Shown here: positions 6,785-21,016 of the stretch, in pieces | Position numbering within the stretch: position 1 is the stretch's first letter | Layout: every line of letters begins with the position of its first letter | DNA from: an uncultured Chloroflexota bacterium | GTDB taxonomy: Bacteria; Chloroflexota; Chloroflexia; Thermomicrobiales; UBA6265 | Reading direction: 5' to 3' | NCBI GenBank assembly: GCA_937870845.1 | Contig: CALMZR010000326.1 | Coordinates: forward strand, 1-36,953 | Length of the DNA stretch: 36,953 bases | The notes under the pieces: model-generated | Database searches by the model: none | Seen by the model: the letters and a program-made list of their open reading frames with translations, nothing else | What the model was told of the DNA's origin: nothing | Translations under genes and position numbers: made by a program

Positions 6785-7906
6785 TCAGGCCGCGCTCGCC
6801 CCCCCGGCGTGGGCCCACTCGGTCTCGACGATGCGGCGGCTGTCGCCGTCGACGTCGGCCCGGTCGAGCGGCTTCCCCAAGGCTGCCCAGGCCGCGGCGC
6901 CCCCCGCGACGCTGGCGACGTTGTCGAACCCCACCTGCTTGAGGAACTGGGCGGCGCGCAGGGAGCGGAATCCCCCCTGGCAGATCATCAGCAGCGGACG
7001 ATCCCGCGGCAGCTCCTCGATGCGGTCGGCGAGGTCGGCCTGCGGAATATTGACCGCGCCCGGCACGTGACCCCAGCCGTACTCGACCGGCTCGCGCACG
7101 TCGACCAGGAGCGCGTCGGGATCGCGGCCATCGAGATCGTCGATGCCGATCTCCTGCACCTTGGGATTGGTCGTCAGCATCGCCCAGGGGCGGTCGGCCA
7201 GACCGCGGTTGGTCGCCTCGATGGCGGTGATGTTCAAGGGGCGGGCGGGGACCGCTTCGCTGAGGTGGTCGACGAAGGGGACCCGGTCGAGGCGGGCCAG
7301 GGGGTTGAAGAGGCGCTCGAAACCGATGGTGGTGCTGGGGCGGCCGCACATCCCTTTGCCGCACGGCCCCTCGAAGTGGCCGGGGAAGACGGCCACCCAG
7401 TCGGGCAGCCGCAGCAGGCGGGTGAGACTCTCGTACTGGGCGGAGGCATCCCCCCCGCCAAAATCGGGCCTCCCCACGTCCCCAACGAGAAGGGAGTCTC
7501 CCGTGAGCACCATCGACGGCTCCGGGCTGCGCTCCGGGTTGATGACCAGGATCGAGATCAACTCCGGGCGGTGGCCGGGGGTGTGCAGCACGCGCAGCCG
7601 GAGCTGGCCCAGCGGCAACTCCTCGCCGTCGTGGAGGGGACGGAAGGGGTACGTGACTTCGGCGTCACGATAGAGACACAGCTCCGCGCCGTGCTCGGCG
7701 GCGAGGCGGCGAGCCCCGGAGATGTGGTCGGCGTGGATGTGGGTGTCGATTACGTATTTCAGCCGAAACCCGCGCATGGCCAGGAGCGAGTCGTACTCTT
7801 CGACGGCGATCGACGGATCGACGATGGCCGCCTCGTTGCTCTGCCGCGAAGCGACCAGATACGAGGCGCATCCGCATCGCTCGTCGAGGAATTGCTTGAA
7901 GTACAT
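6785..7906 (-). CDS. Persulfide dioxygenase (ETHE1-like MBL fold) fused to rhodanese
   Basis: 373 residues from the ATG at 7906 (AAAGGA seven bases upstream). The metallo-beta-lactamase domain (1-240) carries THIHADH (H56, H58, D60, H61), HTPGH (H112), TGDSLL (D137) and PGHFEG (H177), the iron-binding pattern of ETHE1 persulfide dioxygenases. The rhodanese domain (about 255-360) has its active-site cysteine in MICQGG (C309). Such fusions oxidise glutathione or other persulfides to sulfite and move sulfane sulfur, detoxifying sulfide in the cytoplasm. The small gene upstream runs in the same direction and may be its partner. Confidence 0.9.
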   Translation of the reverse strand: MYFKQFLDERCGCASYLVASRQSNEAAIVDPSIAVEEYDSLLAMRGFRLKYVIDTHIHADHISGARRLAAEHGAELCLYRDAEVTYPFRPLHDGEELPLGQLRLRVLHTPGHRPELISILVINPERSPEPSMVLTGDSLLVGDVGRPDFGGGDASAQYESLTRLLRLPDWVAVFPGHFEGPCGKGMCGRPSTTIGFERLFNPLARLDRVPFVDHLSEAVPARPLNITAIEATNRGLADRPWAMLTTNPKVQEIGIDDLDGRDPDALLVDVREPVEYGWGHVPGAVNIPQADLADRIEELPRDRPLLMICQGGFRSLRAAQFLKQVGFDNVASVAGGAAAWAALGKPLDRADVDGDSRRIVETEWAHAGGASAA

Positions 7907-7920
7907 GATCGCGTCCTTTG

Positions 7921-8024
7921 GGCTGCTGGCTGCTGGCTGTTAGCTCTTGGCTGCTGGCGCTTGGCTCAGTTTCGATTGTCAATTTAGCCCGAAGCCAGCA
8001 GCCAGCAGCCAAAAGCCAATGGCC
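7921..8024. repeat. Inverted heptamer arrays around a 20-base centre (locus A)
   Basis: Seven units with consensus GGCTGCT fill 7921-7969. After 20 bases (7970-7989), five units of the complementary AGCAGCC type fill 7990-8024. Bases 7921-7938 pair perfectly with 7993-8010. The right arm touches the stop codon of the small gene at 8025; the left arm ends one base from the ribosome site of the next gene. No gene lies between the arms. Confidence 0.9.
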
Positions 8025-8321
8025 TCACAACTCACACCCGCCGCGCTCGACGATGGCGGCGCAGTGGGAGGCCGGCCAGACCTCGACGCTGCCGGCCATG
8101 GCGAATGGTTGCAGAAACGCCTCGAGTTTGGCGCGGTCGTCGGCCTCGGCGATGAGGTAGAGGGTGTGCTGGCCGTCGATGACCGCCTCGCCGTGGATGA
8201 CCACGCCGTGCTCCCTGGCGTTCTCCCCGCCGAGGTGGTCGAGGAGCATCTTCCCCATCGCGGGGTTCCTGGCCGGGCACGTTTCGGCCGCGTGCTGGTG
8301 ACGGGCGACAAACAGGCTCAC
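8025..8321 (-). CDS. Small conserved protein, ferredoxin-like/DUF3303-like fold suspected
   Basis: 98 residues. The GTG at 8321 was chosen because AGGAGG lies six bases upstream; an in-frame GTG at 8342 has no such site. The sequence begins VSLFVARHQHAAETCPAR and later has HTLYLIAEADDRAKLEAFLQPFAMAGSVEVWPAS. This looks like a small alternating beta-alpha-beta dimeric barrel with one or two cysteines. No function can be assigned from the sequence. It precedes the persulfide dioxygenase in the same direction, separated by repeat locus A, so a role in sulfur handling is only a contextual guess. Confidence 0.75.
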   Translation of the reverse strand: MSLFVARHQHAAETCPARNPAMGKMLLDHLGGENAREHGVVIHGEAVIDGQHTLYLIAEADDRAKLEAFLQPFAMAGSVEVWPASHCAAIVERGGCEL

Positions 8322-8413
8322 GGCTCGCCTCCTGCTTTCCACGGATCTCGCGTGACGCTATCGTACACCCATCGGCCGCCGTCGCTCGCCATCGCCCGAG
8401 CGGAGGGCGCCGG

Positions 8414-8517
8414 CCGTGTCATGCCGAGCGGAGCGAGGGCTCCCAAGAATCATCTTGGCGTTACCGACACGCCGTCTCATGGAGCGCCGAGATTCCTCCT
8501 GCGTCGGAATGACACGG
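8414..8517. repeat. About 100-bp element with terminal inverted repeats, copy 1
   Basis: The ends CCGTGTCATGCCGA (8414-8427) and TCGGAATGACACGG (8504-8517) are inverted repeats with one mismatch. Inside are GAGCGGAGCGAGG near the left end, GCGTTACCG, and GCGCCGAGATTCCTCCT near the right end. A second copy with the same order of motifs lies at 16398-16487. No gene lies inside. This is a MITE- or REP-like non-coding repeat. Confidence 0.75.
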
Positions 8518-13220: not shown

Positions 13221-13336
13221 CCCCTCACCCCAACCCCTCTCCCCGTGCGCGGGGAGAGGGGCTTCGGTTTGGCGACAGCGTTGCCATTGGGCTCCCTTCT
13301 CCCCGCGCACGGGGAGAAGGGCCGGGGATGAGGGGC
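13221..13336. repeat. Bipartite double-hairpin (REP-like) element, copy 1
   Basis: Hairpin 1 pairs 13234-13245 (CCCCTCTCCCCG) with 13250-13261. Hairpin 2 pairs 13294-13305 (CCCTTCTCCCCG) with 13310-13321. Each stem is 12 bp with a 4-base loop. The outer ends CCCCTCACCCC and GGGGATGAGGGG are also roughly inverted. It begins one base after the stop codon of the substrate-binding protein gene. A near-identical copy lies at 19471-19590. Confidence 0.88.
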
Positions 13337-16631: not shown

Positions 16632-18341
16632 ATGACCCGACTCGCAGGGAGGCAGACGTCGCTGCTGCGGCGCCAAGTGGACGCCGCCATCAGGGAGTGG
16701 GAGCGGGGAACGCTCGACCGGCGCTCGCTGCTGCGGCGGGCGGCGCTGCTGGGGATGAGCGCCCCGGCGCTGGCGATGCTGCTGGGGCGGGCCTCGACCC
16801 CGCTCGCGTCCGCATCCGCGCTGCGGGCGCTGCAGGACGACCCCGCGGCCGGGACGCCGGGCGGCACGCTGCGCGTGGCCACCATCGGCGAGCCGCCGCA
16901 TCTGGACGAGCACCAGTCGACAGCGGAGATCATCGCCGTCATCGGTTACTGCGCCTACGAAGGGTTGTTCACCTACGACGCGGACTACCAGCCGATCCCC
17001 GAGCTGGTCGCCGAGCACACCGTCTCCGACGACGGTCTGACGCACACCATGGCGCTGCGCCAGGGGGTGATGTTCCACAACGGCGAGCCGATGACCGCCG
17101 CCGACGTCATCGCCTCCGTCGAGCGTTGGGGGCGGATCAGCGGCGTCGGGCAGCGGCTGATGGAGAAGACGAGCGAGCTGGCCCAGGTCGATGACTCCAC
17201 CATCGAGTTCCGCCTCAGCGAGCCGTATGGGACGATTCTCATCGCGCTGGCGCACAATACGCAGGCCTGCACCATCCATCCCAAGTCGATCCTGGACGCG
17301 GCGGGCGACGACCCGATGACGAACGCCGACCAGTACGTCGGCACCGGGCCGTACCGGCTGGTGGAGTGGCAGCGCGACGCGGCGATGCGTTTCGAGCGCT
17401 TCGACGAGTACCAGTCGTCCTCTGAAGATGGGCCGCTGGGCTACGGCGGGACGAAGTACGCCTACGCCGACGCCATCGAGTTCATCCCGGTGCCGGACGA
17501 GGCGGCGCGCGTGGCCGGGTTGCAGGCGGGGGATTACCAGCTCGCGCTCGATATCGGCAATGACCAGTACGCGGTGCTGGCGGACTTCCCTGGCGTGGTG
17601 GCGGAGATCCTCACGCCGACGAACTGGGATGTCTTCTTCCTCAACTGGGAGTCGCCGATGATGGGCAACCTGGCCATGCGCCAGGCGGTGCAGGCGGCGT
17701 TCGACCACCTGCCGATGCTGCAATCGGGCCGCGGCGGCGACGAGTTCATCCGCCTCGACCCGGGGCTGATGATGCAGCAGACGCCGTGGTGGTCCGAGGC
17801 CGGGGCCGAGCGCTACAACGTCAACGACCCGGAGCTGGCGCGGGCCAAGCTGGAGGAGGCCGGCTACGACGGCGAGCCGCTGCGCTTCCTGACGACGCAG
17901 GAATACTCCTACATGTACGGCGAGGCGATCGTGGCCCAGCAGCAACTGGAGGCGGTCGGGATCACGGTCGATCTGCAGGTGGTCGACTGGGCGACGGTGC
18001 TGGAGCGGCGGGCCATCCCCGAGGAGTGGGACATGTTCGGCACCGGGCACGGCTTCGTGCCCGACCCGAGCCAGATCTCCTACGTCGGGCAGATGAACCA
18101 GTACCCCGGCTGGTGGAGCAGCGAAAGCAGCCTGGCGCTGGCGGCGGAGCTGCTGGCCGAGTCGGAATTCGAGACGCGCATGCCGATCTTCGAGCAGATC
18201 CAGGAGGCGCACTACACGGAGATCCCGGCGATCAAGATCGGCGACTCCAGCAACGTTTCTTTCCGCTCCGAAGCAATCGGGGGCTGGGACGGGCAGTTCG
18301 AGCGGGGGGTGAAGTTCTGGAATCTGTGGCTGAACGAGTGA
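16632..18341 (+). CDS. Oligopeptide-type ABC substrate-binding protein with twin-arginine-like N-terminus
   Basis: 569 residues. The ATG at 16632 follows an AGGAGAGGAGG region. Unlike the other binding protein it has a long N-terminus with LDRRSLLRRAALLGMSAPAL (about 34-53), a twin-arginine-like export signal, then an Ala/Ser-rich cleavage region. Family 5 features follow: GGTLRVATIGEPPHLD, TMALRQGVMFHNGEPMTAADV, YVGTGPYRLVEWQRD and a C-terminal PSQISYVGQMNQYPGWW segment. It is the first gene of the plus-strand importer operon. Its stop codon overlaps the first unit of heptamer locus B. Confidence 0.92.
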   Translation: MTRLAGRQTSLLRRQVDAAIREWERGTLDRRSLLRRAALLGMSAPALAMLLGRASTPLASASALRALQDDPAAGTPGGTLRVATIGEPPHLDEHQSTAEIIAVIGYCAYEGLFTYDADYQPIPELVAEHTVSDDGLTHTMALRQGVMFHNGEPMTAADVIASVERWGRISGVGQRLMEKTSELAQVDDSTIEFRLSEPYGTILIALAHNTQACTIHPKSILDAAGDDPMTNADQYVGTGPYRLVEWQRDAAMRFERFDEYQSSSEDGPLGYGGTKYAYADAIEFIPVPDEAARVAGLQAGDYQLALDIGNDQYAVLADFPGVVAEILTPTNWDVFFLNWESPMMGNLAMRQAVQAAFDHLPMLQSGRGGDEFIRLDPGLMMQQTPWWSEAGAERYNVNDPELARAKLEEAGYDGEPLRFLTTQEYSYMYGEAIVAQQQLEAVGITVDLQVVDWATVLERRAIPEEWDMFGTGHGFVPDPSQISYVGQMNQYPGWWSSESSLALAAELLAESEFETRMPIFEQIQEAHYTEIPAIKIGDSSNVSFRSEAIGGWDGQFERGVKFWNLWLNE

Positions 18342-18486
18342 GGCGGGAGGCGGGAGGCGGAAGGCGGGAGGACGACGGGCGAGGCGCGCCTCGCCAGGGC
18401 ACGGCATGCCGTGCCCCTACCGTTGTCTTGCCGCCTTGCCGTCTTTCCGTTCTTTCCTTCCGCCTCCCGCCTCCCGCCTCCCGCCT
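18341..18486. repeat. Inverted heptamer arrays around two palindromes (locus B)
   Basis: Five units of AGGCGGG type fill 18341-18375; the first unit uses the last base of the preceding stop codon. Four clear units of CCCGCCT type fill 18459-18486, preceded by degenerate 7-8-base units from about 18424. Between them lie two perfect palindromes, GGCGAGGCGCGCCTCGCC (18378-18395) and GGGCACGGCATGCCGTGCCC (18397-18416). The variant unit AGGCGGA occurs in both arms. Confidence 0.88.
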
Positions 18487-18492
18487 CGTCCC

Positions 18493-20512: not shown

Positions 20513-20516
20513 GCGG

Positions 20517-20551
20517 GCTATCAGCTATCAGCTATCAGCTATCAGCTTTCA
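20517..20551 (+). repeat. Left heptamer arm of locus C
   Basis: Four exact copies of GCTATCA are followed by one GCTTTCA. The arm begins four bases after the stop codon of the permease. Read in any frame on this strand it contains no stop codon. It is the exact complement of the innermost five units of the right arm at 20949-20983, including the variant unit in the innermost place. Confidence 0.95.
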
Positions 20552-20576
20552 GCCCGACGGCGACGTGGAGGGCAAG

Positions 20577-20951
20577 GTGGGGGACTTTCGCAACCTCAAG
20601 GTGTGGGAAAAGGGGCATCGGTTGACGCTGGACGTTTACGCCGCGACGAGGCCGTTTCCACGTGACGAACTCGTCGCATTGACCGGCCAGTTGCGGCGAT
20701 CGGTTTCGTCCATACCCGCAAACATCGCCGAAGGGTGCGGACGCAACGGAGACGCTGAGTTGGCGCGGTTCATGGACATCGCCATGGGCTCGGCGAGCGA
20801 GCTCAGCTACCACCTCATCCTTGCCCGCGATCTCGGCTACCTCCTGTCCCAAAACTATGATCGCCTTGCCGGCGAAACGGAGGAGATCAAACGCATGCTC
20901 GCCACCTTCACCGCCCGCCTGCGCAACAAGACGCCAAGACCCGACCGCTGA
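20577..20951 (+). CDS. Four-helix-bundle (S23 / 23S rRNA intervening-sequence) family protein
   Basis: 124 residues. The GTG at 20577 has GGAGGG just upstream and gives the family's usual start GDFRNLKVWEKGH. The family signature follows: FPRDELVALTGQLRRSVSSIPANIAEGCGRNG, with a C-terminal Glu/Lys-rich helix. Members form pentameric four-helix bundles. They are found inside 23S rRNA intervening sequences, and relatives (Avd) assist reverse transcriptases in diversity-generating retroelements. The biochemical role of stand-alone members is not known. The gene lies between inverted heptamer arms, and its TGA stop is the first three bases of the right arm. It interrupts an importer operon. Confidence 0.92.
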   Translation: MGDFRNLKVWEKGHRLTLDVYAATRPFPRDELVALTGQLRRSVSSIPANIAEGCGRNGDAELARFMDIAMGSASELSYHLILARDLGYLLSQNYDRLAGETEEIKRMLATFTARLRNKTPRPDR

Positions 20952-21004
20952 AAGCTGATAGCTGATAGCTGATAGCTGATAGCTGATAGCTGATAGCTGA
21001 TAGC
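20949..21004 (+). repeat. Right heptamer arm of locus C
   Basis: One TGAAAGC is followed by seven exact copies of TGATAGC. It ends two bases before the ribosome site of the dipeptidase gene. Because 7 is not a multiple of 3 and the unit contains TGA, an array of three units closes all three reading frames. With the left arm it could form a perfect stem of 35 base pairs, with register slippage because the right arm has three more units. Confidence 0.95.
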
Positions 21005-21016
21005 CCGGAGGCCCCC

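Follow-up and report, generated by a model that had tools for sequence, protein, structure and literature searches.

The window analysed here is a 36,953-nucleotide stretch of DNA from an uncultured Chloroflexota bacterium, contig C326 of a draft genome (G000) of 5.09 Mb in 418 contigs, and our subject is a short element at positions 7921-8024 in which two arrays of 7-nt units face each other. The element fills the gap that separates a DUF3303 stop codon from the ribosome-binding-like site of a metallo-beta-lactamase and rhodanese gene, both genes lying on the minus strand (Table 1). As an initial annotation made from the sequence had described, the fit is tight on both sides. The right arm ends at 8024, abutting the minus-strand TGA stop codon at 8025-8027, while the left arm begins at 7921, beside the AAAGGA at 7914-7919, after which comes the ATG start codon at 7906-7904. 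The window holds three such facing units, at 7921-8024 (TGGCT-NN), 18340-18487 (AGGCG-NN), and 20514-21007 (TCAGC-NN), the last of which encloses a gene of the S23 family. Our best reading of the focal locus is that it belongs to an S23-based system of protein and repeats, as one of the members that consist of arrays only.

Table 1. Features of the three array elements in the window and of the genes flanking the focal element.
Feature	Coordinates	Strand	Description
Metallo-beta-lactamase and rhodanese gene	6785-7906	-	PF00753, PF00581; downstream of the focal element
AAAGGA, ribosome-binding-like	7914-7919	-	Belongs to the downstream gene; adjoins the left arm
Focal left array	7921-7965	+	7 units TGGCT-NN, reading direction towards the centre
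Focal centre	7966-7985		20 nt; without similarity to S23 genes or other centres
Focal right array	7986-8024	-	Inverted copy of the left unit type, 5-6 units
DUF3303 gene	8025-8342	-	PF11746; stop codon abuts the right arm
Second array-only element, left array	18340-18371	+	Unit AGGCG-NN
Second array-only element, right array	18456-18487	-	
S23-bearing element, left array	20514-20553	+	Unit TCAGC-NN (GCTATCA)
S23 gene	20577-20951	+	PF05635; 124 aa, GTG start
S23-bearing element, right array	20947-21007	-	GCTGATA x8

The left arm of the focal element reads, at a 7-nt pitch, GGCTGCT, GGCTGCT, GGCTGTT, AGCTCTT, GGCTGCT, GGCGCTT, and GGC, and the right arm consists of five clear units and one degenerate unit. 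Positions 7921-7938 and 7993-8010 are exact complements over 18 nt, so that the facing arrays (7921-7965 and 7986-8024), the 18 exact pairs, and the 20-nt centre reported initially are all borne out. These features are not due to chance: the longest exact inverted arm in 300 dinucleotide shuffles was 12 nt, and the summed 7-nt array score, 40 in the real sequence, never exceeded 17 in 2000 shuffles. Across the genome, the core 18 nt of the arm yielded 82 near matches, most of them arranged as facing pairs, versus 5 for a reversed control.

Facing arrays of this kind are a feature of the whole genome. Inverted array pairs in 552 kb of G000 numbered 29 for period 7, five for period 8, and 0-3 for any other period, period 7 thus accounting for 29 of the 39 pairs among periods 5-11; these counts include 17 pieces, out of 41 besides the window, that were chosen for holding arrays or S23 genes. 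The 205 kb picked regardless of arrays contain 23 period-7 arrays. The initial annotation had proposed that the observation would fall if such arrays were as frequent in shuffled sequence, and shuffling left none at any period, which shows that the 29 period-7 pairs are not a chance product. Seven S23 genes were found in the genome, all of them lying between inverted 7- or 8-nt arrays and each with its own unit, and array-only pairs are several-fold more numerous than S23 copies. When 28 array-only 7-nt pairs were compared with the five heptamer S23 units of their own genome, mean similarity was 0.612, versus a mean of 0.471 and a maximum of 0.549 for 300 sets of five foreign units. The pairs behave as a dispersed repeat, being family-specific, linked to a cognate gene, and located between genes, a position that was read for the window elements.

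The focal arrays fit into this pattern, although not in the way that their neighbourhood would suggest. The element is of the same kind as the S23-bearing element 12.5 kb away, as was originally supposed, but its unit differs from that of this neighbour. By unit comparison it fits instead the S23 element on another contig (C45:13264-13708), a longer version that combines the focal unit with an S23 gene. The S23 protein encoded there is 65% identical to the window S23 and would be the cognate protein of the focal arrays.

The same annotation took the focal element for a form that had lost its cargo, and array-only pairs could indeed be S23 elements left behind after deletion of the gene, since both draw on the same unit families. 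This origin is disfavoured, and we hold it to be highly improbable, because the centres retain no S23 remnant: they have nothing in common with S23 genes or with each other, the best matches being 10-15 nt. Each of ten centres that were searched occurs only at its own place in G000, and the search yielded a single partial match of 33 nt in the congener G003. Array-only pairs moreover outnumber S23 copies, and at comparable junctions the units or hairpins of congeners are different ones. Since the centres are unique, the elements have not been copied as whole units.

A more ordinary explanation is that the pairs are intercistronic stem-loops, acting as mRNA stabilisers or attenuators under selection for RNA structure, with their repetition and their linkage to S23 incidental. 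As RNA, the focal element forms a strong hairpin (-58.1 kcal/mol, z -4.55), and it lies between two same-strand genes. Where the window has its second element, two congeners (G001 and G002) have a different hairpin. A hairpin, however, needs no 7-nt period, yet this period dominates the inverted pairs. Nor are the free positions of the units complementary across arms beyond chance (0.759 vs 0.753), and neither the linkage to S23 nor the absence of arrays from S23-free genomes, both described below, is explained. We therefore consider this account unlikely. No T-run, as in an intrinsic terminator, follows the focal hairpin on the gene strand, and covariance models of Rfam 15 gave no match at gathering score anywhere in the window. 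Because the focal RNA folds so well, it is nevertheless plausible that the element acts locally as an intercistronic hairpin, which may be a secondary use of the arrays.

The gene inside the arrays of the third element is clearly a member of the S23 family (PF05635, also named 23S_rRNA_IVP), which it matches with 122.1 bits against a gathering score of 33.8, and not a tyrosine transposase as in REPIN/RAYT systems. Its predicted fold (predicted local distance difference test score 93.6) superposes on the chains of 2gsc, the S23 protein XCC0516 of Xanthomonas campestris, with a template modelling score of 0.84-0.89 by query length, and also matches 2rld and Avd, a protein of diversity-generating retroelements. 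The solved entries 2gsc and 2rld contain five chains each, a count per entry rather than a biological assembly. The TGA stop codon of the window S23 gene lies inside the right array (20947-20951), and arrays overlap the gene end in this way in many S23 loci. G003, a metagenome-assembled Thermomicrobiales genome, has the same S23 contig.

The association between S23 and heptamer arrays extends far beyond this lineage. Among S23 relatives taken from 80 genome contigs of many phyla, supplemented with relatives and plasmids, arrays of 7 or 8 nt flank 133 of 140 non-redundant loci on at least one side and 110 on both, irrespective of orientation. A 7-nt array is present in 203 of 274 S23 flanks, versus 1 of 274 after shuffling and 25 of 250 pieces taken 900 bp away, and other periods occur in only 1-19 of these flanks. 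Where both arms are 7-nt arrays, which is the case in 100 elements, their orientation is inverted in 81, direct in nine, and ambiguous in 10, which shows that inverted orientation is the rule but not a constant. The direct orientation scores better at L127, L147, L149, L153, L169, L181, L183, L237, and L248. The arms of an element resemble each other in unit more than they resemble those of other elements (0.70 vs 0.51). A typical unit has about five fixed and two free positions, TCAGC-NN for example showing all 16 NN pairs. The commonest TCAGC-type array holds exactly five AGC triplets over 31 nt: in 86 such arms, the number of triplets at 7-nt pitch is five in 44, three in nine, four in 16, six in eight, and more in nine.

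No S23 was found in annotated phages; seven loci on contigs labelled as viral (L351-L357) each have an array in at least one flank, weakly so in L353, and when read by eye five of the seven, two of them nearly identical, have one or both arms with five GGC triplets. The innermost unit GGCGTTCGGC recurs among these loci. On the Pseudanabaena plasmid pPg_01, an S23 gene (L237, 1501-1860) lies between cas6 and cas4 and is flanked left and right by very long heptamer arrays.

The units themselves vary with the protein: the more alike two S23 proteins are in sequence, the more alike are their units (Mantel r 0.54, 0 of 2000 permutations), and the window S23 unit is closer to those of homologues in other genomes (0.58) than to those of paralogues in its own genome (0.375). 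As judged from these sequence comparisons, the unit follows the S23 protein and not the genome. At about 60% protein identity across phyla, noncoding arms should be random unless they are constrained, and while the free positions are random, the fixed ones are not.

Presence and absence of arrays point in the same direction. Eight S23-free relatives (494 kb) contain no array of 7 or 8 nt, whereas 10 S23-bearing relatives (781 kb) contain 55 period-7 arrays; one S23-bearing genome, G021, has none of period 7 and a single one of period 8. In five of the six genomes that were tested, dispersed arrays are closer to the genome's own S23 units than to foreign units. This bears on the possibility that heptamer arrays are simply produced by replication slippage, with a polymerase that favours 7 nt (Mrazek et al. 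2007, summarised in PMC4679880). Some arrays are indeed long and uniform, such as that at 20947-21004 in the window and one of 293 nt at L153, and slippage may lengthen arrays. It predicts neither inverted pairs nor free positions within fixed ones, and it accounts neither for the absence of arrays from S23-free genomes nor for the match of units to S23. As a sole cause it is therefore disfavoured, and we give it very little credence.

Several comparisons bear on movement. On the Nostoc plasmid pNe_5 the genes nrdB and nrdA are separated by an S23 element, while a Calothrix plasmid that is 85% identical there has the junction without the element. The window S23 element is likewise absent from the matching junction of G001 and G002, where downstream synteny is lost. 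At one syntenic junction, G000 carries TGGCT-NN arrays, G002 AGTCG-NN arrays, and G001 none, and at another both G000 and G002 carry AGTCG-NN arrays with unrelated centres. Either the same junctions are therefore used repeatedly or units are replaced over time. In seven relatives the region upstream of the lactamase-rhodanese orthologue lacks both arrays and S23; since the neighbouring genes differ, these orthologues provide no empty-site comparison for the focal element.

The empty nrd-operon site, the missing element at the G001/G002 junction, and the scattered presence of S23 among relatives would all be expected if S23 elements were selfish mobile elements, moved by a host or foreign recombinase, with the arrays as mere ends and S23 as passive cargo. 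Passive cargo would not be expected to have a unit that tracks the protein across phyla while two positions stay free, nor arms of five units that match a five-chain protein, and we find this alternative improbable.

These same two properties, the unit following S23 across phyla with two free positions and the five-unit arms matching five chains, point to S23 as the reader of the arrays. We favour, as the somewhat more probable explanation, that the arrays are part of an S23-based system in which S23 pentamers read the repeats and drive their upkeep and spread, the focal element being an array-only copy. An S23 homopentamer would form a ring on one arm, with each subunit contacting one unit, and its target could be single-stranded DNA or RNA, by analogy with TRAP on triplet repeats. 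Such binding might then be what maintains and spreads cognate arrays, much like the role proposed for RAYT proteins in the case of REPINs. A wider proposal, which we put forward only tentatively, is that S23 proteins form rings that read five-unit heptamer tracks sequence-specifically and give rise to the heptamer arrays of bacteria, that each clade recognises its own unit, and that cognate arrays are gained or kept up without a classical transposase. A reverse transcriptase might take part, as it does for the related Avd.

A number of points weigh against the S23-based explanation. Both the binding of arrays by S23 and their movement are inferred from sequence, and a profile search found no nuclease or recombinase domain in S23. 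About one element in ten has direct arms, and about half of the TCAGC-type arms have fewer or more than five triplets. The array-only centres are unique, unlike those of REPINs or miniature inverted-repeat transposable elements (MITEs). G003 bears S23 and has no arrays in the 35 kb sampled, and the arrays of G020 mismatch its one known S23. In addition, the sample of S23 loci is biased towards relatives of the window S23, the Mantel test was made without correction for phylogeny, and the base-by-base comparison covers a single empty site.

The closest known parallel is provided by REPINs and RAYTs, in which inverted pairs of short repeats lie between genes in several families per genome, each tied to one gene with the same flanking repeat (PMC3116915). 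The S23 arrays too are scattered inverted pairs whose families are linked to one distinctive gene. However, S23 is a four-helix bundle and not a tyrosine transposase, the arms are tandem 7-nt arrays, and the copies, in contrast to those of REPINs or MITEs, are not alike over their whole length. Avd shares the S23 fold but belongs to diversity-generating retroelements, and no tie between it and repeat arrays was sought or found. TRAP is a ring-shaped RNA-binding attenuation protein of 11 subunits that reads short motifs at a fixed pitch. A ring of S23 reading motifs along one strand would share this binding principle, with another fold and with five units at a 7-nt pitch in place of 11 subunits.

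Heptamer repeats have been described before. The GGGAATC/(GGGANTN)n and GGGGA(C/T)T arrays of Xanthomonas and Nostoc were reported as G-quadruplex repeats (Rehm et al. 2015, PMC4692102). They lie mostly between genes and most commonly have four units, and in Xanthomonas about 70 convergent inverted pairs are present per genome. Like the S23 arrays they have 7-nt units with fixed and free positions, and X. campestris also has the S23 protein XCC0516, although S23 is absent from the main text of that report. TAACTGA heptamers in Beggiatoaceae, Cyanobacteria, and Bacteroidetes were proposed to be S1, Csp, or Csr sites (MacGregor 2015, PMC4679880). TAACTGA corresponds to an ACTGA-NN unit and forms the arrays of a cyanobacterial S23 gene (L255); the repeats described are mostly direct, however, and S23 is unmentioned there. 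Both look like the same repeats, described without their protein. Searches of open-licence papers for S23 together with heptamers, intervening sequences, or Avd found no earlier link; a CRISPR survey has the name 23S rRNA IVP in a figure legend (PMC10910872).

S23 is widespread and its structures have been solved since 2006, without a known function. Likewise, bacteria have been known since 2007 to have more 7-nt repeats than expected, and no cause has gained acceptance. A link between S23 and heptamer arrays, in which the unit follows the protein and a five-unit track serves a five-chain protein, could account for the abundance of seven-base repeats in bacteria. It would make the two problems one testable question and would suggest a kind of dispersed repeat that is partnered by a protein other than a transposase.

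Other repeats were seen in the window. Within the centre of the second element, 18389-18455 contains a further 8-nt-like array (GTCTTGCC GCCTTGCC GTCTTTCC), as if two families were nested. A facing pair of C/G-rich hairpins at 13228-13327 (CCCCTCTCCCC...GGGGAGAGGGG) is 88% complementary, and similar hairpins are found in G001 and G002 at the junction that holds the 18340 element in the window. A stretch of the type GTCATGCCGAGC...CGGAATGACA lies at 8418-8515, and a dispersed repeat of about 90 bp, seen from L044 (16115-16206) and present in dozens of copies in G000 and G002, may belong to the same family as this stretch.
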